From assembly GCF_016097555.1 (NCBI RefSeq), contig NC_054704.1, positions 100,190,716 to 100,254,715 on the forward strand: 64,000 nucleotides of DNA. The letters run 5' to 3'. This stretch comes from Gigantopelta aegis (lineage: Eukaryota; Mollusca; Gastropoda; Neomphalida; Peltospiridae). Of this stretch, positions 6,130 through 62,300 are shown piece after piece (within the stretch, counting starts at the first letter, position 1; each line of letters starts with the position of its first letter). The notes under the pieces are model-generated. The model was not told the origin of the DNA. It worked only from the letters and a program-made list of their open reading frames with translations, and ran no database searches. The translations under genes were made by a program, and so were the position numbers.

Positions 6130-6688
6130 CAACTTCGGGACAGGGCATCAGCGATTACATTGGATGGGCCCTTGATATGTTCAATGGTAATTGGGTATTC
6201 TTGCAGAAGAAGACTCCATCTCAACTCTCTCTGGTTGGAGGCTTTCATTAGGATGGTCCAGTCCGTCTTCGTCTTCTTGGAACAGCACAGCTCCAGCACC
6301 CACGTCACTGGCACCCACAGCTAGCTTGAACGGCATTCGGTAGTCTGGTGCTGCGATCACGGGAGACGAGGAGCGCATCTGCTTGAGACGGTTGAATGAC
6401 TTCTCGCATTCACCTGACCACTGGAACTTCGTTTCTTTCTTTTTCGTGGTCGCACGTTTTCCAGGTTTTCTCCGATAGGCGTGCTGTCGAATCGGTGTAG
6501 CGTTGGGTTCCAAGCGCACATCCTGGCTTAAGGTGTTGGTAATCGTTGGAAGGTTGTGACAAATGGAAACATTGTCTTGTTTCAACGTAGTCAACTTTGC
6601 TCGCTGGGGGTTCAAGTCTGCTAGAATCTGGCTGTTGGTTAATTTTCTCTCTGCAGTCTTGACGTCATCACAGGAAATTGAGTGACTC
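6130..6688 (-). pseudogene. Gypsy RT/RNase H region (fossil)
   Basis: Minus-strand fragments carry peptides typical of the Gypsy RT-RNase H junction (FKLAVGASDVGAGAVLFQED) and of the RNase H end (HIKGPSNVIADALSR). The region belongs to the broken Gypsy element and continues beyond the short LINE-derived element inserted at 6701. No function is expected now. Confidence 0.8.
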
Positions 6689-6700
6689 TCAATTTGGACA
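6689..6700. repeat. 12-bp target-site duplication, left copy
   Basis: tcaatttggaca is repeated exactly at 6981-6992 and brackets the short element. Confidence 0.95.
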
Positions 6701-6773
6701 GCCCCTGCGTGTGCTGTAACCTCACCGTGGTGCAGGGGTGTAACATTCTCTTTGAGAATGGCCAATACAGCAC
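6701..6773 (+). ncRNA. HDV-like self-cleaving ribozyme (short element 1)
   Basis: P1 GCCCCTGC (6701-6708) pairs with GCAGGGGT (6732-6739), putting a G-U wobble at the cleavage site as in HDV. P2 GTGCTGT (6711-6717) pairs with ACAGCAC (6767-6773), which forms a pseudoknot with P1. P3 is ACC/GGT around a 7-nt loop. P4 is CATTCTC/GAGAATG (6744-6750/6754-6760). J4/2 starts GCC, with C6762 in the position of the catalytic cytosine. Predicted cleavage is just 5' of G6701, which is exactly the element boundary defined by the target-site duplication. Confidence 0.82.
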
Positions 6774-6980
6774 AAAATTGAAGTTTTGAGTAAAATTCAG
6801 TATCCATAAAATTCTGTGATATTTGTGTTTTTGCACAGTTCTTTACACTGTTTTTGTTTGTCTTGAATTTTTATATTGATGTTGATCATCACTTTATTTA
6901 TTTGCATTACCATAGTTTGACACCCAATAGCCGATGTATTTTTCGTGCTGGGGTGTCGTTAAACATTCATTCATTCATTC
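6701..6980 (+). mobile_element. short ribozyme-headed nonautonomous element, copy 1
   Basis: 280 bp with perfect 12-bp target-site duplications. The first 73 bp are an HDV-like ribozyme related to the 5' end of the LINE copies at 7561 and 10098. The last ~170 bp, from ctgtgatatttg through gtgctggggtgtcgttaaac to an ATTC tail, match the LINE 3' UTR at 15590-15760. It has no coding capacity. It is best read as an internally deleted LINE derivative mobilised in trans by the full LINE. The arrangement recalls trypanosome L1Tc/NARTc, where a ribozyme-bearing 5' end is shared between an autonomous and a nonautonomous element. The second copy is at 19870-20143. Confidence 0.88.
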
Positions 6981-7008
6981 TCAATTTGGACAGGTAGTAC
7001 TGGAACTA

Positions 7009-7548
7009 TCAGCAGTCTGTCAAATAACCTTTTAGCAAATTGATGCGACAATACCTACTTTTCCTAACCCTATCAGGAGTGTTTATCACATACCCTGTCT
7101 CATTAACCCGTTTGTGCACAACATAGGGCCCGAAATAGCTGTTCTGCACAGAACCCCGTTTAATGGGAAGGTACAGCAGCACTTTATCCCCTGGTTTAAA
7201 TTCCCGACTCTTAGCCTTCCTATCAAACACTGATTTTATTTTGCTCTGAGCATGGCTCAGTTGCTTCCTAGCCTTCCTGTCTCTAACTCTCTTATTCATT
7301 AATATTCCCTTGTCCATATCATAACCTGACATCTGATCCTCCATCTCACCCTCTGTTAACAATGTAGTGCGAGCTGCCAACAATTGTGGATCAGCCCCCT
7401 GCTCTAGAATTAACTCTTGTCTATTACAAGGTAAATCCCCTCTATCAAACACAACTGGTTCAATTCCCCTCTGCGGGAGATCAACAGGTTCCACCACATT
7501 AGTTTCGTCAGTTGACTTATCTACCATTTTACTGATAACTTCATCCAC
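7009..7548 (-). pseudogene. Gypsy integrase C-terminal region (fossil)
   Basis: The minus-strand frame contains an HHCC-linker-like start (RQELILEQGADPQLLAAR) and a GPY/F-type integrase C-terminal module (KPGDKVLLYLPIKR, FGPYVVHKRVNETGYVI). It belongs to the broken Gypsy element. On the minus strand it precedes the RT/RNase H part, consistent with Gmr1-like order. Confidence 0.8.
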
Positions 7549-7559
7549 TCCAATTTCAT
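7549..7559. repeat. 11-bp target-site duplication of the LINE composite, left copy
   Basis: tccaatttcat recurs at 15761-15771. The two copies bracket the whole A+B LINE composite, implying a single insertion event into the Gypsy element. Confidence 0.92.
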
Positions 7560-7560
7560 A

Positions 7561-7633
7561 GCCCCTGCGTGTGCATTAACCTCACCGTGGTGCAGGGGTG
7601 AACATTCTTTTATAGAATGGCCAATAAATGCAC
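7561..7633 (+). ncRNA. HDV-like self-cleaving ribozyme (LINE copy A 5' end)
   Basis: P1 GCCCCTGC (7561-7568) with GCAGGGGT (7592-7599). P2 GTGCATT (7571-7577) with AATGCAC (7627-7633), a perfect 7-bp pseudoknotted helix that differs from the short elements by two compensated pairs. P3 ACC/GGT. P4 CATTCT/AGAATG (7603-7608/7614-7619). J4/2 GCCAATA with candidate catalytic C7621. The J1.1/4-P4 and J4/2 stretches (ACATTC, AATGGC) read like the HDV ribozyme itself. Cleavage before G7561 would free the LINE RNA 5' end. Confidence 0.82.
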
Positions 7634-8069
7634 AACTCCTCGTATGAGGCACTTGTTGGCCGCGAGGTGCATCCCGTAATGCTGGATGATGGGATCCTGG
7701 TGGTTGAGTTGGGTGCATATCTGCAGGTATGTTTTCTGGCAACACACCACTTTGGCCTGGAGTTCAGCCAGACGGGTGGTCAGGGAGGCCCGACCTGATC
7801 AATCGGCTGGTCATGTCAAGCTCAAGAGCAAACAACCTTTGTTTCTTTCATCTAGCCAAGAGTAAGCATTGTTTAATTTACCATGTGTATTTGTTGCTCT
7901 TGGGGCGGTGGCTGGGGTCAATTGGGTGATTTATTGTTTGTATATTGCCCAAGTATATCAATCATGTATCCCTGGCATGGCTGTCTGCTGGTTATCCGCA
8001 GCACCATGTCCCCTTTGTTGGACTCGGTGGTGGGTGGGGGCATGGTTGATGAACATTTGAATTATTAAT
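7634..8069 (+). other. LINE copy A 5' UTR
   Basis: Between ribozyme and ORF1. It aligns with 10170-10607 of copy B, including a stretch of in-frame but unlikely upstream codons. No separate gene is seen. Confidence 0.7.
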
Positions 8070-9370
8070 ATGGATATCATCCAAAATTTAATTCCAAATT
8101 CTGATGGGACCCTGAAAAGGGTCCACACCGAAGTTTCGGACTTCTTGTCTTCGGACGAGGAGTCCATGGCATCAAGAACAACTGTGAAGAAATCCAAAGT
8201 GATTTCTTCACAAAATTGGCCAAGGTTTCTTGTCATCAGTTCTACTGATGATGGGGCCTTGAACAAATTATCCCCGTTTGCCATTCAAAAGGCAATTGTT
8301 GGCTTGGCTGGTGAGCCTAAATCAGTAAAAAATAAATAAAGAATGGACTATTGGTTGAATGTTCAACCGAAAAACACTCAACTTGTCTTCTCAAGTCTAC
8401 AGTTTTTTGTACCTTATCCATTAAGGTCACTCCACATACCTCCCTTAACTCGTCTAAGGGAGTGATCAGATGCAGGGATCTGGAAGGAGTTAGTGAGGAT
8501 GAGATATGCCAAAATCTATGTTCGCAGGGTGTTACTGCTGTGAGGAGGATAAAGGTTCGTCGGAGCAATGAATTGTTACCGACGAATACTTTTATCCTAA
8601 CATTTAATATCCCTACCCTTCCCCAATCTGTCAAGGCTGGTTACCTTAGTATTCCTGTTGAACCCTTTATTCCAAACCCCTTGCGTTGCTTCAAATGCCA
8701 GAGGTTTTGCCATGGTCAGAACACGTGTCGTGGGAAACTTACATGTGGCCGATGTGGTCTTTTTGACCATGATAGCAAGACGTGTACAAACGATATACTT
8801 TGTCTTAACTGCAAGGGCAACCACTGTGCATACTCGCGAGAGTGTCCACGGTGGAAACTGGAAAAACGGGTTCAGCAGGTAAAGGTACAAAATAAGTTAT
8901 CTTTCATGGATGCCAGGAGGTTGGTGGAAACAGCAACACCAACAGTGGTTGGCAAGCCATATGCAGCTGCAGTTGCTGCCAAAGTCGCCACTAAAAGTGT
9001 TGGAGTTAACACAGAATTAGCCTGGCATTGTGATGATGCCAAATACAAAAAACTGTCTGACATTGAGAAGGCTCAAAAACAGGTGCACAAAGCATCACAA
9101 AAAAACAAAGTTACTCCCCAGCACAAAGAAATGGAAACCCAGGTGTCATTGGATGTTACAAATCCACCAAATAGGTCGAAAACAAAAGAAGTACTTTCAG
9201 GTCGGCTTAAAAAGATCGAACTGCGTTCGGTCCCGATCAGCAATATGTACGAAACTTTGGCTGATATTGGTGATGATGATATGGAGGTTTCATCTCCAGA
9301 TCATTGCCGATCACAAAGACCACCAGCAAAGCCAAAGATAAAGCCCATACTTCCTCCCGATGGAAAATAA
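8070..9370 (+). pseudogene. LINE copy A ORF1 (RNA-binding, CCHC knuckles), frameshifted
   Basis: Starts at ATG 8070 (MDIIQN) and ends at TAA 9370. Three CCHC-type knuckles lie in the stretch beginning CFKCQRFCHGQNTC and ending near CAYSRECPRW, the hallmark of I/jockey-group ORF1 nucleic-acid chaperones. One frameshift around 8325-8350 separates the N-terminal 89 codons from the rest (frame resumes at LLVECSTE). The last codons overlap the start of ORF2 by 11 nt. Against copy B ORF1 the protein is only about 70% identical by eye, lower than for ORF2. Confidence 0.85.
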
Positions 9371-10085
9371 AGTCATCCAATGGAACTGTCGTGGGCTTAG
9401 GCCCAATTTTGATGAATTAAGTCTTTTAATTCAAAAACATAATCCTCTTGCAGTGTGTCTTCAGGAAACGTTCTTGAAGGACACTGATCATATTACTATG
9501 AGAGGATTTAACCTCTATCATAAATTTCAAGAAACTGAAAATAGAGCATCTGGGGGTGTTTCCATTCTTGTTAATGAAAACACTCATCAGAGTATAGTAG
9601 CATTAATTACAAATTTACAAGCTGTGGCTGTAAAGGTCACGGCTCATAAAACTATAACTCTGTGTTCGGTTTACTTGCCACCTCGAAACCATTTTAGTTT
9701 TCATCCTAGGGACCTTCAATGTCTTATTGATCAGCTCCCTACTCCCTTTATTATTATGGGAGATTTTAATGGTCACCACACTTTGTGGGGATGTGAGGAT
9801 GTAAATATTAGAGGTAAACAATTCGAAGACTTAATTCTCAAAAATGACTTACTTTTCTTCAATGATAAAAGTCATACATATTTTCATTCTGCAAGTGGTT
9901 CTTTCACTTCTATAGATTTAACCCTTTGTAATCCTTCACTTTTTCTTGATTTCTCCTGGAAAGTTGGTTCAGACCTTTGTGGTAGTAACCACTTTCCCAT
10001 TATTTTGGAGAATGATGGACCACCATCACTTGAAAGGGTTCAAAGGTGGAAGTTGGCGAAGGCAAATTGGGGTCAGTTTCAGCAT
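9360..10085 (+). pseudogene. LINE copy A ORF2, endonuclease part only
   Basis: Starts MENKVIQWNCRGLRPNFDEL. It holds the APE-type endonuclease motifs: the QWNCRG start, CLQETF with the metal-binding Glu, GDFNGHHTLWG, SIDLTL and a C-terminal NHFPI. The frame is open up to the junction, where copy A stops after QFQHLC and copy B's 5' end follows. RT and RNase H are absent. About 90% identical to copy B over this stretch by eye. Confidence 0.85.
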
Positions 10086-10097
10086 CTGTGCAGCACA

Positions 10098-10169
10098 CTC
10101 CTGCGTGTGCATTAACCTCACCGTGGTGCAGGGGTGAACATTCTTTTATAGAATGGCCAATAAATGCAC
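10098..10169 (+). ncRNA. HDV-like ribozyme (LINE copy B 5' end)
   Basis: P1 CTCCTGC (10098-10104) with GCAGGGG (10128-10134), including a U-G pair. P2 GTGCATT (10107-10113) with AATGCAC (10163-10169). P4 CATTCT/AGAATG (10139-10144/10150-10155). J4/2 contains candidate catalytic C10157. The first two bases of the usual GCCCC start are altered at the join to copy A, so cleavage of this copy may be weak. Confidence 0.75.
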
Positions 10170-10607
10170 ATCTCCTCGTATGAGGCACCTTGTTTGCCGT
10201 GAGGTGCGACCCGTGAAAATGGATGATGGGATCCTGGTGATTGAGTCGGGGCATACCTGCGGGTATGACTTCTGACAATACATCACTTTGGCCTGGAGTT
10301 CAAATAGACGGGCGGTCAGGGAGGCCCGACCTGATCAATCGGCTGGTCACGCCAAGCTCGAGACCAAAAAACCTTTGTTTTGTTTATTTTAGCCAAGAAC
10401 AAACATTGTTTTATTTACCTTTTGTATTTGTTGCTCTTGGGGCGGTGGCTAGGGTCAATTGGGTGATTTATTTTTGTTTATTGCCCAAGTATATTAACCA
10501 TGTATCCCTGGCATGGATGTCTGCTGGTTATCCGCAGCACCATGTCCCCTTGTTGGACTCGGTGGTGGGTGGGGAGCATGGTTGATGAATTAACACTCCA
10601 TACTAAC
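10170..10607 (+). other. LINE copy B 5' UTR
   Basis: Aligns with the 5' UTR of copy A. An in-frame ATG at 10500 lies upstream, but ORF1 homology between the copies starts at the ATG at 10608. Confidence 0.7.
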
Positions 10608-11917
10608 ATGGATATTAACAAATCTCCAACATTTGATGGGACTCTGAAGAGAGTCCGCACCGAGGTTTCGGATTCCTCCTCCTCTGATGAGGAATCCATG
10701 TTGTCTAGTTTGACTGTGAAGAAATCAAGGGTTATTTCTTTGGATATTTGGCCAAGGTTCCTCGTTATCGAATCTTCAAACGATGGAGCTTTGCAAAAAT
10801 TATCACCTTTTGCAGTTGAGAAGGTACTCCAAGGCTTGGCTGGTGAGCCAAAGAGTGTTAAAAAGTTAAAGAATGGTTCTCTGTTGGTAGAATGCTCCAC
10901 TGAGAGTCATTCCAAATGTCTTCTCAAATCCAAAATGCTATGCAATATATCCATCAAAGTCAGTGTGCACAAGTCCCTTAATTCATCAAAGGGTGTGATT
11001 CGATCACGAGATTTGGAAGGAGTGAGTGAAGATGAGATATGTGAAAATCTCTCTTCACAAGGTGTTTCGTTTGTTAAACGGATACGTGTTCGTCGGAACA
11101 ATGAATTGGTTCCAACGAACACATTTATCATAACTTTTGATAAACCTCTCCTTCCTGAATCCATCAAGGCTGGGTATCTAAACATACCAGTTGTACCATT
11201 CATTCCAAATCCCTTGCGGTGTTTTAAATGCCAAAAATATGGACATGGTCAAAACACCTGCCGTGGCAAAATGACATGTGCACGATGTGGGCAGTTTGAC
11301 CACGAGAGCAAGACATGTCATATTGATATATCATGTACTAACTGCAAGGGAAACCATTTTGCTTACTCTCGAGAGTGCCCAAGATGGCAATTGGAAAAAC
11401 GGATACAACAGGTTCGGGTTGCAAAACGTGTGTCGTTTCCTGAAGCCAGAAAGTTGGTGGAGACTAAGTCAGCTGTTGCTGTGGAGAAATCCTATGCTGC
11501 AGCAGTTAAGGTCTCTACTACAAGTACTTCAGTTCAGACGGATTTAACCTGGCCTGATGGTGTTGATCGATATCAGAAATTATCGGATGTAGAGAAGGCT
11601 CAAAAGCGGGCAGCAAAGGCTGTTCAGATGCTGTGTCCCAAATGTCCTTAGATTCTCAGAATGCTCCAGTGGTTTCACCAGTTGGAAAACCAGGTTGTAG
11701 CAAACCTGTCACCAAAAAGGAAACCAAAAAACAACATAAAGATAACTTGTCAGGTAGACTAAAGAAATATGAACAGCGAACAGTTTCAACTGCTAATTCA
11801 TTTGAGGCTTTGGATGATCTGGAACATGAGATGGACATCTCTCAAGATTATCCATGAACAAAAAGACCACCACCAAAGCCTACGATAACTCCCATACTTC
11901 CACCTAATGGCAAATAA
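10608..11917 (+). pseudogene. LINE copy B ORF1 (CCHC knuckles), broken
   Basis: Starts MDINKSPTFDGTLKR, acidic/serine-rich at the N terminus, with three CCHC knuckles beginning CFKCQKYGHGQNTC and an RNA-binding core. A frameshift near 11630-11650 and a stop at 11855-11857 break the C-terminal part. Copy A remains open to its TAA there. The frame corresponding to copy A's end would stop at 11917, overlapping the ORF2 ATG at 11907 as in copy A. Confidence 0.85.
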
Positions 11918-14900
11918 ATTCCTACAGTGGAACTGCCGTGGGCTTAGGCCCAATTTTGATGAATTAACTCTTTTAATTCTAAAACACAATCCTCTTGCAG
12001 TGTGTCTTCGGGAAACTTTCTTGAAGGACACTGATCATATTACCATGAGAGAATTTAACCTCTATCATAAGTTTCATGAAACTGAAACTAGAGCATCTGG
12101 GGGTGTTTCCATTCTTGTTAATGAAAACATTCCTCAGAGTATAGTAGCTTTAACTACAAATTTACAAGCTGTGGCTGTAAAGGTCACGGCTCATAAAACT
12201 ATAACTCTGTGTTCAGTTTATTTACCTCCTCGAAACCATTTTAATTTTAATTCTAGAGATCTTCAAGACCTCATTAACCAGCTTCCTACTCTCTTTATTA
12301 TTATGGGAGATTTTAATGGTCACCACACTTTGTGGGGATGCGAGGATATCAATATTAGAGGTAAACAATTGGAAGACTTAATTCTCAAAAACGACTTACT
12401 TTTATTTAATGATAAAAGTCGTACATATCTTCATTCTGCAAGTGGATCTTTCACTTCCATAGATTTAACTCTTTGTAGTCCATCACTTTTTTTGTTGTTG
12501 ATTTCTCCTGGAAAGTTGGTTCAGACCCTTGTGGTAGTGACCACTTTCCCAATATTTTGGAGAATGATGGACCACCATCACTTGAAAGGGTTCAAAGGTG
12601 GAAGTTGGCGAAGGCAAATTGGGGTCAGTTTCAGCATCTGTGCAGCACTCGCCTGCAACAATTTGCCATAACTAATGCTGATGATCCCATGTCTTTGTTC
12701 ACTTCCATCTTGAAGAACATTGCAGATGTAAACATTGAACATTCAGTAAACCATGGTTTAATGATACGTGCAAAGATGCATTCAAAGAGCGAAACAGGTT
12801 GCTTGAGCGGTTCAAACGAGAACCTACAGCAGACAACCTGGATGCATTTCGTATTGCTAGGGCTAAGGCTCGCAGAGAGATTAGACAGAGTAAGAAAACA
12901 TCTTGGAGAACTTTTGTCTCCAAGTTGAATTCACAAACATCAGTAAAATCTGTCTGGAATAGGATCCGTAAAATCAAAGGTAAAGAATCCAGTAATACAG
13001 TTCATCATTTGTCTGTCAATGATACGGATGTCACGTCTCATCGAGACATTGCCAATGCATTGGCAGACAACTTTTCTCATAACTCATCTTCTGCTTTCAG
13101 TACAGCTGCTTTTACATCTGTCAGAACTAAAGCTGAAAAGCAGTCCATTAATTTTTCATCTGAAAATGCTGAAGTGTACAACAGGCGTTTCTCTATGGAG
13201 GAATTGCAGGATGCTCTTCTTAGAGCCCATGATACTTCAGTAGGACCGGATGAAATTCATTATCAGTTATTAAAACATTTACCTGAATCATCTTTGATGG
13301 TTCTTTTGAATATTTTTAATAACATCTGGATTTCTGGAGACTTTCCTTCTGATTGGAGGAAAGCTATTATCATTCCTATTCCCAAGCCTGGTAAGGATCC
13401 AACCAATCCCACTAGTTATCGCCCTATCGCTTTGACAAGTTGCATTTGTAAAACCATGGAACGCATGATCAATCGTAGACTTGTCTGGTATCTTGAATCT
13501 CACAAATTGCTCACTAACGTGCAATGTGGGTTCAGATCTAGACGTAGCACGGTTGATCACCTTGTTAGATTTGAAACGTTTTGTAGGGAAGCTTTCATCC
13601 ATAATCAGTACTTGGTTTCAGTGTTTTTTGATTTGGAGAAAGCTTACGATACCACGTGGAAGTATGGGATTTTAAACGACCTCCATGGCATGGGCCTAAG
13701 AAGTCGACTTCCAGTTTTTATATCTCAGTTTTTAAGAGATAGATCTTTTAAAGTCCGGGTGGGGTCGACTTTGTCCGACATTCACCCACAGGAGATGGGT
13801 GTGCCTCAAGGTAGTATCCTGTCTGTAACTCTATTTTCTGTGAAAATTAATAGCATCACCCAGTGTTTAACACCTGATGTCGATTGCTCGTTATATGTCG
13901 ATGATTTTCAGATTTGCTATAGATCGTCCAATATGAGTATCATTGAACGTAAGTTGCAGCTTTGTTTGAATAAACTTCATCAATGGGCAACTGACAATGG
14001 CTTTAGATTCTCAAAGGCAAAAACGGTTTGTATGCATATCTGCCAGAAAAGAGGTCTTCACTTAGATCCACAGTTGTTTTTGGACAAAAATCCAATTCCA
14101 GTTGTGGAGGAGACTAAATTTCTGGGGGTTATATTTGACAGGAAGCTATCTTTTGTGCCCCATCTTAAATATGTTAAAAAGAAGGGCTTAAAAGCTCTCA
14201 ATATTTTAAAAGTTATTGGTAATACGGAATGGGGAGCAGACCGCAAGGTTATGCTCCCTCTGTATAGATCTCTTGTGAGGTCTAAACTTGATTATGGATG
14301 CATTGTGTATGGGTCGGCACGCAAGTCTTACTTGCAGATGCTAGATCCTATACACAATCAGGGACTTAGGCTTTGTCTTGGTGCGTTTAGAATATCACCT
14401 GTAGAGAGCTTGTACGTTGATGCACACGAACCTTGTTTGGGTGCTAGACGTGCAAAGCTTTTTCTGCAGTATGCTGCCAAGATTAAATCTTTACCAACAC
14501 ATCCAGCTCATGATGCTGTGTTTGACAACAAATATATGAAGTTGTTTGATGCAAGGCTAAATGCTATTCGTACATTTGGTCTTCGCATTAAGCGTTTTTT
14601 GTCGCTTTCCAACATTGATTTAACTGACACTTTGGAAACTCCTTCATATTTTGTTTTACCACCATGGTGTATTACACCACCTAAAATTGTCTTTCATCTG
14701 GCGCATCTGAAGAAAGATCGTACAGATGCTGTAGTTTATAAACAATTGTTCATGGAAATTCAGGACAAGTACCGTGATTACATTCCTGTGTATACAGATG
14801 GATCACGGGAGGGGAATTCTGTGGCTTGTGCTACAGTTTTTCCATCAGACACAATACTTTCCATGCGACTGCCTGACTCAGCATCAATCTTTAGTGCTGA

Positions 14901-15582
14901 AGTTTGGGCAGTCATTAAAGCCTTAGAAGAAATCAAAGATTCAATAGCATCCAAATTTATTATTTTTACAGACTCACTTTCATGTCTCCAAGCTTTACGT
15001 AATATGAAGCTGGACCATCCCTTAATTGGGATGGTGATACGAAAGTGGGTCTTTTTATCTATTGCCAATAAAGACATTGTATTTTGTTGGGTACCCAGCC
15101 ATGTTGGCATCAGGGGTAATGAAAAGGTAGATTCAGCTGCCAAGTCTGCTTTGGATTTGCCTCATGCCAGGGTTGGTGTGCCTTATACTGATTTTAAACC
15201 TAACATCAACCAATTTATCTTTTCAATTTGGCAACGTGATTGGGACGGTGAGGTTACGAACAAGCTTCATGCTATCAAGCCAGTCTTGGGAGAGTGGCAG
15301 TCCTCCTATAGACAGTGCAGGAAGGATGAAATAGTCTTGTGTCGTGCCCGCATTGGTCATACTCACTTGACCCATTCATTTATCTTAAAGAAAGATCCTC
15401 CACCTCAGTGTGAACACTGTCAGTGTACTCTGACTGTGCGTCACATTTTGGTGGAGTGTCAGTTTTTGAAAGAAATTCGAAAAGATATATTTGGTCAGAG
15501 AAATGTGATGGAATCCTTTCGATTCCATCCAGAACTTTTATTACAATTTCTTCGAGATACTGACTTTTATTGTAAATTTTAA
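11907..15582 (+). pseudogene. LINE copy B ORF2: endonuclease-RT-RNase H, two frameshifts
   Basis: MANKFLQWNCRG opens the APE endonuclease. A short insertion near 12490 relative to copy A, and a second shift near 12740, change frame. From about 12745 to 15582 the frame is open. RT motifs are SYRPIALTSCICKTMER, GFRSRRSTVDHLVRFE, FFDLEKAYDTTW, GVPQGSILSVTLF and the catalytic LYVDDFQICY. A type-I RNase H follows (VYTDGSREG, SAEVWAVIKALEE, IIFTDSLSCLQAL, GNEKVDSAAKSA), then a cysteine-rich C terminus (QCEHCQCTLTVRHILVEC). The domain set is that of I-group LINEs. The open RT-RNase H half suggests recent mobility. Confidence 0.9.
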
Positions 15583-15760
15583 TTTGATTCATCTGTGATA
15601 TTTGTATTTTTGCACAGTTCTTTACACTGTGTTTTAATTTAACTGTTGAATTTTTATATTGAAGTTGATTATCGAATTTGTTTCGCTTTTACCATAGTTT
15701 GACACCCAATAGCCGATGTATTTTTCGTGCTGGTGTGTCGTTAAACATTCATTCATTCAT
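15583..15760 (+). other. LINE copy B 3' UTR and ATTC tail
   Basis: Contains ttgacacccaatagccgatg and gtgtcgttaaacattc followed by ATTC repeats. Both short elements end the same way, and the tRNA-SINEs of this window share the same motif pair, which suggests it is the LINE's RT recognition end. Confidence 0.85.
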
Positions 15761-15889
15761 TCCAATTTCATGGCTCACACACGTATCAGACAAATCACAA
15801 ATATCCTCTGGGTCTCGTTTTACCCTTCTGGCCATAGCCCTAGTCTTTACACACGCAGGATAACTAATCTCATCAACCTCACTCTCTCA

Positions 15890-17717
<1,828 letters not shown>

Positions 17718-19855: not shown

Positions 19856-19869
19856 ATTAATCAAGTATA

Positions 19870-19941
19870 CCCCCGCGCGTGCTGTAACCTCACCGTGGTG
19901 CAGGGGTGTAACATTCTCTTTGAGAATGGCCAATACAGCAC
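19870..19941 (+). ncRNA. HDV-like ribozyme (short element 2)
   Basis: P2 GTGCTGT pairs with ACAGCAC (19935-19941). P4 is CATTCTC/GAGAATG and the J4/2 candidate C is 19930. The 5' P1 strand has drifted (CCCCCGC against GCAGGGG), so this copy is probably impaired. Confidence 0.7.
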
Positions 19942-20143
19942 CAAATTAAAATTTTGAGTAAAATTCAGTATCTGTAAAATTCTGTGATATTTTGTGTTTT
20001 TGCACTGTTTTTGTTTAAATCTTGAATTTTTATATTGATGTTGATCATCACTTTATTTATTTGCATTACCATAGTTTGGCACCCAATAGCCGATGTATTT
20101 TTCGTGCTGGGGTGTCGTTAAACATTCATTCATTCATTCATTC
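19870..20143 (+). mobile_element. short ribozyme-headed nonautonomous element, copy 2
   Basis: 274 bp flanked by a perfect 14-bp target-site duplication (attaatcaagtata at 19856-19869 and 20144-20157). It has the same architecture as the element at 6701-6980: HDV-like ribozyme head, short spacer, LINE 3' tail, ATTC repeats. It inserted next to the ORF2 stop of a minus-strand LINE relic. Confidence 0.88.
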
Positions 20144-20157
20144 ATTAATCAAGTATA

Positions 20158-59300: not shown

Positions 59301-62300
59301 CCTTTGATATACCAGTCGTGGTGCACTGGCTAGAACGAGAAATAGCTCAATAGGCCCACCGACTGGGATCAATCCCAGACCGACTGCGCATCGAGCGAGT
59401 GCTTTACCACTGGGCTACGTCCCGACCTGGACCACCACTAGAGCACATTGATTTATAATCATTGGCTATTGGATGTCAAACATTTGGTAATTTTGACATA
59501 TAGTCTTAGACAGGTAACCCGTTACATTTTCCATTAGTAGCAAGGGATATTTTATATGCATCATCCCACAAGCAGAATAGCACATACCAAGGCCTTTGTT
59601 ATACCAGTCATGGTGCACTGGCTAGAATGAGAAACAACCCAGTGGGCCCTAACAACAGGGGTCGATCCCAGACAGACCACACACCAGGGCTACGTTCTGC
59701 ACACTGAACTGAAATACTACACATATACAACCCAATGGGCCCTAACAACAGGGGTCGATCCCAGACAGACCACACACCAGGGCTACGTTCTGCACACTGA
59801 ACTGAAATACTACACATATACAACCCAATGGGCCCTAACAACAGGGGTCGATCCCAGACAGACCACACACCAGGGCTACGTTCTGCCCACTGAACTGAAA
59901 TACTACACATATACAACCCAATGGGCCCTAACAACAGGGGTCGATGCCAGACAGACCACACACCAGGGCTACGTTCTGCCCACTGAACTGAAATACTACA
60001 CATATACAACCCAATGGGCCCTAACAACAGGGGTCGATCCCAGACAGACCACACACCAGGGCTACGTTCTGCACACTGAACTGAAATACTACACATATAC
60101 AACCCAATGGGCCCTAACAACAGGGGTCGATCCCAGACAGACCACACACCAGGGCTACGTTCTGCACACTGAACTGAAATACTACACATATACAACCCAA
60201 TGGGTCCTAACAACAGGGGTCGATCCCAGACAGACCACACACCAGGGCTACGTTCTGCCCACTGAACTGAAATACTACACATGTACAACCCAATGGGCCC
60301 TAACAACAGGGGTCGATCCCAGACAGACCACACACCAGGGCTACGTTCTGCCCACTGAACTGAAATACTACACATATACAACCCAATGGGCCCTAACAAC
60401 AGGGGTCGATCCCAGACAGACCACACACCAGGGCTACGTTCTGCCCACTGAACTGAAATACTACACATATACAACCCAATGGGCCCTAACAACAGGGGTC
60501 GATCCCAGACAGACCACACACCAGGGCTACGTTCTGCCCACTGAACTGAAATACTACACATATACTACTCAAAAGAATTTAAGGGTCAGACGATATTTTC
60601 GACATTATTTTCTGAATGTCAGTTATATTAGCTAGACCATAATGTCATGCATGGTATTGTTCCATTTTGACGAAAGTGGGTCTAAGCAACCCATAAATGA
60701 ATTAAAATCCACTGTCATTGACACTGTCGACTAGTTCTAATGGCGAAAACATGCTTACATTTGCACGTAAATTAGGGCGAAAGCGAAAGGTCTGCTAAGT
60801 GCCCATAACTTGCTTTTTCACAAAGCGCTTCATTTGCACGCTTTGCACGTGTATTCCATGTTCCCAATGCTGAATTTCCGTATAATTGGAGCTTGCATTC
60901 GTGTACGGTGCACACTCCAAATTCGACAATGGTATCGCACCGTCATACAATTTCGATCAACATATGTCTTCGATACTTTCTTTATAACTGCATGTATCGC
61001 GAGATTATGCGAGATATTACGTCACTATTAGTCTGAACATAAACAACGAAGTGTCTTTTTTCCTCACAATATTAAAAATGCTTCAAGTCAAGCTGCCAAC
61101 TTTATGTTTTAATTATAATACCATATATAGTGTGCATGTTATCGGTTTTTCGTAATGCAATATTTTGGTACTAATGAAATGCCTCACATAGCGAAATCCA
61201 GGTATTACAAATCCCTGCAAAGTTATCGTCTGCAACACTGACATCTGACCTGCCAAAGTTAGAGGATATACTATGTGATCATTACACTGAACAATAAAAT
61301 TTATGGAAGGCTGGTTGGGTTACCTCTTATGTCATTCACAGCAAAGTTGGGGGCATGTTTACATGTACATTTACATTTACTACAAACAAAGGTGGTTTAG
61401 TGGAATTAGATTTTTTGAAAATATATAGTTCTGTATCTCTGTTAGAGTACTTAAGTTGACAATCTGAATTTTGGTGTCATTGATACGTATAACAAGAAGA
61501 TTAGACATTAACCTATGACAAAAACATAATGTAAATATGTTTTAAGTGAACACTGTCTATTGGTCTGAAGATTATTCAATATTTTTTACAAGTTACAAAC
61601 ATTTTATGATTTTATTTTCAAATGAAGATTTTGATGTAAATTATTAAACGGAGTATAGACCCTTCACTGCCATAACAAGGACAAAAATAGACAGCCAATG
61701 AAAGTATCGAAAACATATGACGTTTGTAAAAATATAGCGGTAACACCTGTACGACTCAGCAGCTAGTGTTTATGGAGGAAAACTTGGCGTTCATGGGAAA
61801 TTATCACTTTTTTTCACAATAAACTAATGTGACTTGAGAAAGGTAAAATATTATTGTATGTACGAAGTATTGTTTTTATTATAGTTTAATTTTTTGCTTA
61901 TCGTATCGAAAACATATGACGCCAGGATACGACTTCAACTGACTATCGAAGATCGAGGAAGGGCTATTGCTTGGCTTCAGGATAGCAATACGCAAAGAAA
62001 TGTTGCTCTGAGACTTGGTGTCAGTCAGAGTGTCGTTGGCCGACTGTGGCAACGGTACCAAGCAACGAATTCTGTTCGAAATCGTCCACGTTCGGGAAGA
62101 CCCCGAAGCACTACAAATAGAGAGGACCGCTACATCACCAATATGGCTCTACGTCAACGCACAACCACTGCACACCGATTACGTGACAATCTGCGGACTG
62201 CGACTGGAACTCGAGTGTCTGATCAAACCATACGCAATCGTCTGAGAGCCAATAATCTACGCTGCCGTCGCCAGGCTGTTCGACCACCACTCCTACCACG

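Follow-up and report, generated by a model that had tools for sequence, protein, structure and literature searches.

Retroelements in the analysed window

The stretch of mollusc genome analysed here (64 kb, hereafter the window) holds LINE sequences and short non-autonomous elements on its forward strand. The host is taken to be a mollusc because it carries domains of molluscan hemocyanin, which gave no match in 14 bacterial and other controls, and because these domains match solved hemocyanins of molluscs, including KLH1. The LINE body at 10098..15761 consists of a 5' UTR, ORFs, a 3' end resembling that of the short elements and an (ATTC)n tail. Its ORF1 (10467-11651) shows CCHC-type motifs by eye and gave no Pfam match, and it is followed by an APE endonuclease (11889-12671; PF03372/PF14529) and by a frame encoding RT and RNase H (12739-15582; PF00078, PF00075). 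The domain set of the I group (APE endonuclease, RT and RNase H) is present by Pfam, and the LINE is a candidate member of this group, an assignment that rests on domain order rather than on an RT tree.

Immediately upstream, 7562..10104 holds the 5' part of a LINE copy, in which a ribozyme and a 5' UTR precede the ORFs, and which matches 10100-12656 at 84%. It contains an ORF1 remnant (8336-9370) and an endonuclease frame (9342-10115), after which the piece stops. This 2.5-kb 5' piece is joined through a CCTGC microhomology (window 10090-10106) to the ribozyme of the second LINE. Because 7562-15771 has a single 3' end and a single pair of target-site duplications (TSDs), we ruled out that the sequence starting at 10098 is a nested insertion; the chimera looks like the product of a template jump during reverse transcription.

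The first short element (6702..6980) has a ribozyme joined by a linker of about 38 nt to a LINE-like 3' end of about 170 nt and ends in (ATTC)n, and a second one, also flanked by TSDs, lies at 19870..20143. Short elements and LINEs agree over 71-75 nt at the 5' end (86-89%) and over 149-178 nt at the 3' end (87-88%; for the element at 6702, 88% over 178 nt). The short elements share both ends with the LINE and have no ORFs; judged from these alignments, they are internally deleted LINE derivatives (SIDEs), in the way that passages of PMC4035085 describe NARTc as an internally deleted derivative of L1Tc. An A-box pattern occurs in the short element exactly at 27-37 and with one mismatch at 58 and at 227, while the sole B-box match, at 213, has three mismatches and is distant from 27, so that no B box is convincing. 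A bacterial-type scan found no tRNA in the window. Elsewhere the window contains a long CT microsatellite (17200-17330) and, at 59608-60635, a tandem repeat of coding length with open frames in both orientations.

Four copies of an HDV-like fold

The original prediction had placed the nested pseudoknot of HDV ribozymes at four places. Parsing of the helices confirmed this layout on the forward strand, with the first ribozyme nucleotide (C1) at 6702, 7562, 10098 and 19870; the LINE ribozyme that had been placed at 7561 begins at C7562, with G7561 outside it. A 23-base core, AACCTCACCGTGGTGCAGGGGTG, is present without mismatch at all four sites and had no match in 100 shuffles. Each site has the order P1 (7 bp), P2 (7 bp), P3 (3 bp), a 7-nt L3, P1', a J1/4 of 4-5 nt, P4, a joint and P2', with P1 CCCCTGC/GCAGGGG, P3 ACC/GGT and L3 TCACCGT. 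P2 is GTGCATT/AATGCAC (type A) at 7562 and 10098 and GTGCTGT/ACAGCAC (type B) at 6702 and 19870, and P4 is either CATTCT/AGAATG or CATTCTC/GAGAATG. J4/2 opens with GCCAA, and GGCCAA, matching the catalytic-C motif GGCNAA, is present at all four sites.

The individual copies are a type B ribozyme with a 7-bp P4 that heads the short element (6702..6773; predicted catalytic C 6762), a type A ribozyme with a 6-bp P4 that heads the LINE piece (7562..7633; predicted catalytic C 7621), a second type A ribozyme at the chimeric junction (10098..10169) and a second type B ribozyme (19870..19941). The P helices are fully paired at three of the four sites, counting a T-G wobble at the second P1 pair of 10098 (CTCCTGC/GCAGGGG); the fourth, 19870, has one C/A mismatch in P1 (CCCCCGC/GCAGGGG). 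P1.1, formed by L3 with J1/4, pairs as C-G and A-U in both window types, in a register taken from that of HDV. The positions of the L3 U-G reverse wobble, whose role is treated in passages of PMC3774820, are filled in types A and B by T at L3-1 and G at L3-6.

A strict motif search of the window, of a kind that the original prediction had proposed for all genomic copies, was carried out with a descriptor comprising P1 of 7 bp, P2 of 7 bp, P3 of 3 bp, P4 of 6 bp and GCNAA (the alignment was made without the GCNAA requirement). It matched three of the four sites on the forward strand and nothing on the reverse strand of the window; 19870 escapes it because of the single mismatch in P1. In 300 dinucleotide-shuffled windows the descriptor score of the real sites was never reached, and 84 lower-scoring matches occurred, while a smaller run on 60 shuffles gave 19 matches in total, with scores not separated. 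A covariance model built from the four sites recovered the same four at 97-104 bits, as it must by construction, and three extra matches of less than 10 bits each. At its own thresholds Rfam gave no match in the window. With relaxed thresholds, applied to 6650-10250 (three sites), RF02682 (HDV-F-prausnitzii) matched end to end with E values of 0.0099-0.09, at 29.5 bits (6702, E 0.0099), 26.8 bits (7562) and 25.3 bits (10098), all below the gathering cut-off of 44.

A conserved element end could in principle fold like HDV by accident, and the energy of the fold alone is indeed not unusual: pseudoknot-free folds have unremarkable energies (z -1.40 and -1.31) that do not discriminate, and in type B the fold of lowest energy forms P2 at the cost of P1. 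We give chance pairing next to no credence, given the 0 of 300 shuffles at the descriptor score, the Rfam matches, and the two-sided changes and the TSD boundary at the predicted cut that are described below. The HDV-like fold is thus supported by pairing above chance, by two-sided changes in P2, P4 and P1.1, by an independent Rfam model that matches below its cut-off and, above all, by the TSD boundary.

Compensated changes between two ribozyme types

Between types A and B two P2 pairs are altered on both strands, and P4 of type B is longer by one C-G pair, at a position occupied by T/T in type A, which bears out both the double change in P2 and the extension of P4 from 6 to 7 pairs (T/T to C/G) that had been predicted at the four sites. 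The second pair of P1.1 is A-U in the window and U-A in the Rfam consensus, and in another HDV-like family of the same genome it is C-G at 28 of 30 loci and T-G at the other two.

Across the genome, the two P2 strands were found combined as A/A in 107 copies, as A/B in none and as B/A in one (B/B combinations belong to the looser core-pattern count given below and have no separate tally), so that strands of different types are almost never mixed. The difference between A and B is mainly a single split of two lineages, and its weight is that of two double changes and not of thousands. Within the family, covariation of P1 was sought among copies with P1' GCAAGG and not found: 35 of these 38 copies keep CCCTGC, one has CTCTGC, which is uncompensated, and two have the compensating CCTTGC. 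A third compensated P2 type was also considered, on account of 21 copies with GTGC[C/G]NN (C or G at position 14), and was rejected, as 18 of them keep ACAGCAC and none is compensated.

The rule that LINEs carry GTGCATT and short elements GTGCTGT holds within the window and fails beyond it, where two LINEs carry ribozymes of the short type. One of them (L098) is a LINE 5' region with an internally deleted ribozyme in which the two P2 strands are of type B. The other (L097) is a LINE 5' region of mosaic make-up, with a type B-like ribozyme head containing one P2 mismatch, and it resembles the chimera of the window.

The element boundary at the predicted cleavage site

According to passages of PMC4035085, cleavage by an HDV-like ribozyme should fall 5' of its first nucleotide. 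Within the window, the claim that the predicted cut coincides with the TSD boundary holds exactly for both short elements: the TSD TCTCAATTTGGACAG occupies 6687..6701, directly before C1 (3' copy 6979-6993), and ATTAATCAAGTATA occupies 19856-19869, directly before C1 of 19870, and 20144-20157. For the LINE insertion the coincidence is approximate, since two extra bases, AG (G7561 included), separate the TSD CCAATTTCAT (7550..7559; 3' copy 15762-15771) from C7562, and the ribozyme at 10098 has no TSD of its own.

We extended the comparison to 30 short elements drawn from the 40 matches that scored best against window 6702-6968, one of which (L039) is the window locus 6702 itself, and to eight LINE copies with a type A ribozyme. 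As all of these were picked as the best matches of queries with C1 as their first base, full-length copies are over-represented among them, and the sample is silent on the fraction of truncated copies. A clear TSD of 10-16 bp was present in 29 of the 30 short elements, the remaining one (L053) lying in an AC repeat in which it was unreadable. The TSD ended exactly at C1 in 21 of the 30, one base inside it (a shared C) in four, one base before it in three and two bases before it in one; the 21 exact and four shared-C cases give 25 of 30 at the predicted cut. Six of the eight LINE copies had their 3' end inside the fetched stretch, and by eye the TSD ended at C1 in five of these six (with a two-base ambiguity in L006), whereas L003 had four extra T between TSD and C1. 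In total, the TSD ends at the predicted cleavage site in 30 of 36 readable copies. Since the cut is expected before C1, the TSD boundary of most copies coincides with the predicted cut to the nucleotide.

Promoter and ribozyme readings of the 5' end

A precise 5' end could also be set by an internal Pol II promoter, with transcription starting at C1, a downstream element CGTG at +25 to +28, and conservation acting on the DNA. A cap would leave G as an extra base at the 5' junction; the extra bases at 5' junctions are c, a, t, ca, tttt and ag, and thus mostly not the expected G. According to passages of PMC3774820, R2 elements with cleavage at the 5' end carry variable extra bases as well. The promoter reading gains from the position of CGTG, which starts at +25 in all four window copies, as it does in Pr77 of Trypanosoma cruzi L1Tc, and from the 5' primer for L1Tc Pr77, which begins CCCTGG (both from passages of PMC4748587). 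It does not predict the two-sided base-pair changes in P2, P4 and P1.1 or the GCNAA joint. Moreover, no stretch of R2 ribozymes is more conserved than CCUCCUCGUGG, which, according to parts of PMC5035012, lies in them at other distances from the element start, so that a ribozyme alone can explain CGTG. A promoter as the sole determinant of the 5' end is, in our judgement, very unlikely.

The two functions might also coexist, the same 72 bp serving in DNA as a core promoter for Pol II and in RNA as a ribozyme. This reading is compatible with a ribozyme-set 5' end, and such a dual role has been published for Pr77 of L1Tc (passages of PMC4748587 and PMC4035085), which the window elements match in the position of CGTG and in overall layout. 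However, CGTG is dictated by the ribozyme, as part of L3 and P3', and its position may be a by-product; together with the conservation of CCUCCUCGUGG at other distances in R2, which lowers the odds, this leaves a dual function rather unlikely.

Copies across the genome and their decay

The core pattern, allowing any inner P2, has 4,773 copies in the mollusc genome and none in the control; among the core-pattern matches listed, all on the first contig, four are of type A. In one of eight parts of a scan of viral contigs, the exact core had no match. Of 421 candidates for the type A ribozyme, the 40 that were scored are all 100% identical over 79 nt and lie at scattered sites, and 40 scored copies of the short element (query window 6702-6968) are 99-100% identical.

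Decayed copies occur as well. A or T at position 4 of P1' was found in 141 copies (two in the control), in some of them through loss of P1'. Uncompensated loss of P1 or P2 pairs, named in the original prediction as evidence against a ribozyme, therefore does occur in individual copies, which are few beside 4,773, and we infer that copies with such changes are decayed insertions. A recurrent deletion variant lacks P1' altogether (G000:C1:44097387-44097425 and others), with GTGGTGTAAC in place of GTGGTGCAGGGGTGTAAC; this variant is probably unable to cleave. Two arrangements of copies were also observed. At one locus (L083), from about position 1490, about 14 units of about 81 bp form a tandem array that ends in a short element; the unit consists of the 5' half of the ribozyme and flank, making the array a satellite derived from the ribozyme head. 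At another (L088), two short elements lie head to tail with starts 222 bp apart, the first being truncated.

The existence of decayed copies, some of them without P1', might be taken to mean that an ancestral HDV-like ribozyme is now dead and that 5' ends are inherited through template run-off and microhomology only. The identity of the 40 scored type A copies over 79 nt and the 99-100% identity of the 40 scored short elements, among which the TSDs of eight LINE copies and 30 short elements were examined, point instead to recent spread with the structure intact. The differences between types A and B lie mostly in loops and compensated pairs, and yet the ORF1 of the type B LINE L098 is only 65% identical to that of the window over 387 residues. 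We see little more than a slight chance that the ribozyme is dead.

A second HDV-like family in the same genome

A second, clearly different family of HDV-like ribozymes was observed in this genome at loci L009-L038 (matches at locus position 1501). RF02682 had 61 matches in the genome at E values up to 10, of which 21 are above the gathering score; the control search gave sub-cut-off matches in 6 of 14 genomes. In this family the pairing of P1, P3 and P4 is not independent of the model that selected it, whereas P2 and P1.1 are not pairs of the model. P2 pairs over 5-7 bp in all seven rows checked, which were picked by hand from 16 distinct rows; the P1.1 tally given above covers all 30 loci. 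Conservation extends beyond the cut into the upstream sequence (CATCAAAYTTGGTATAT), and a AGGGCCAC minisatellite follows in some loci, which indicates that the ribozyme sits inside another element. We rejected L009-L038 as relatives of the LINE, as they represent a different element, conserved also ahead of its ribozyme. At L009 the ribozyme lies beside a U4 snRNA, a partial U6 and a tRNA (81-1578).

A proposed ribozyme-based mechanism

We consider it highly likely that the 5' end of an APE-RT-RNase H LINE, and that of its deleted partner, is determined by an HDV-like ribozyme through the mechanism proposed here. The sequences show a fold above chance, compensated changes that separate two lineages, a precise 5' boundary, shared 3' ends and high copy number. 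In the proposed mechanism, every element would be headed by a 72-nt self-cleaving ribozyme with the HDV fold and would be transcribed inside a longer transcript, presumably by co-transcription. The ribozyme would fold and cleave directly before C1, and the RNA of the element would thereby gain a free 5' end; such trimming out of longer transcripts is very probable. The freed RNA would be copied by target-primed reverse transcription at a nick, starting from its (ATTC)n 3' end, and full-length copies that begin precisely at C1 would result from run-off there. The short elements, which combine the ribozyme with the LINE 3' end, may be mobilised in trans by the LINE enzyme.

Comparison with known systems

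LINEs headed by HDV-like ribozymes, and deleted partners that contain such ribozymes, are already known. Ruminski et al. 2011 reportedly described ribozymes of RTE, R4, SART and Baggins LINEs, which are ribozyme-terminated non-LTR elements of animals, the hosts of these LINE ribozymes being said to be arthropods, nematodes and chordates. For a molluscan LINE, a search by title and beginning of abstract, in mostly open literature that does not establish priority, found no report of an HDV-like ribozyme. With the present family, which has thousands of copies, the known range of ribozyme-headed retroelements would grow by a mollusc and by an APE-RT-RNase H LINE. Most copies are a short partner without a clear Pol III promoter, and, with so many of them young, the relation of the cleavage site to the insertion boundary can be tested directly.

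Among Rfam families, RF02682 shares with the window copies the P1-P3-P4 layout, an L3 of UCNNCGU and the GCNAA joint, at 25-30 bits; it is bacterial, and the window copies score below its gathering cut-off and therefore have no formal Rfam membership. Ribozymes of R2 resemble those described here in having an HDV-like fold at the 5' junction, a P1 of 6-7 bp, the conserved CCUCCUCGUGG and some extra junction bases (passages of PMC3774820 and PMC5035012). R2 differs in inserting mostly into 28S rDNA and in often borrowing P1 from the host (passages of PMC3774820), whereas the window family has dispersed insertions, TSDs of 10-16 bp and a complete ribozyme inside the element. R2 itself is known in a mollusc, the oyster (R2NS-1_CGi; passages of PMC5035012). 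Mollusc hammerhead non-LTR retrozymes are likewise short, non-autonomous and self-cleaving, with about 5000 copies in mussel, but use another ribozyme and have a circular RNA biology (passages of PMC7761336 and PMC7229834).

Closest in organisation are the trypanosomatid elements L1Tc, NARTc and SIDER of the ingi clade, of which Pr77 is the hallmark and in which the ribozyme has about 77 nt, compared with 72 nt in the window (passages of PMC4035085 and PMC4748587). In L1Tc as in the mollusc an HDV-like ribozyme heads an APE-RT-RNase H LINE that has deleted short partners (passages of PMC4035085). The cut, here predicted, lies directly before +1 in both, CGTG occupies +25 to +28, and L1Tc starts with CCCTGG. 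L1Tc differs in host phylum and in sequence, and the comparison with Pr77 draws on two motifs only, from parts of the published descriptions. A single 5' module, combining ribozyme and Pol II downstream promoter, could have been shared by descent between the mollusc LINEs and L1Tc/ingi, with the short partners forming a recurrent, cleavage-dependent class of SINEs without a Pol III promoter. The conservation of CCUCCUCGUGG in R2 at other distances lowers the odds of such shared descent too, and we hold it to be unlikely. The coincidence between CGTG in L3 and the L1Tc promoter nevertheless makes the question of promoter or ribozyme testable outside trypanosomes.
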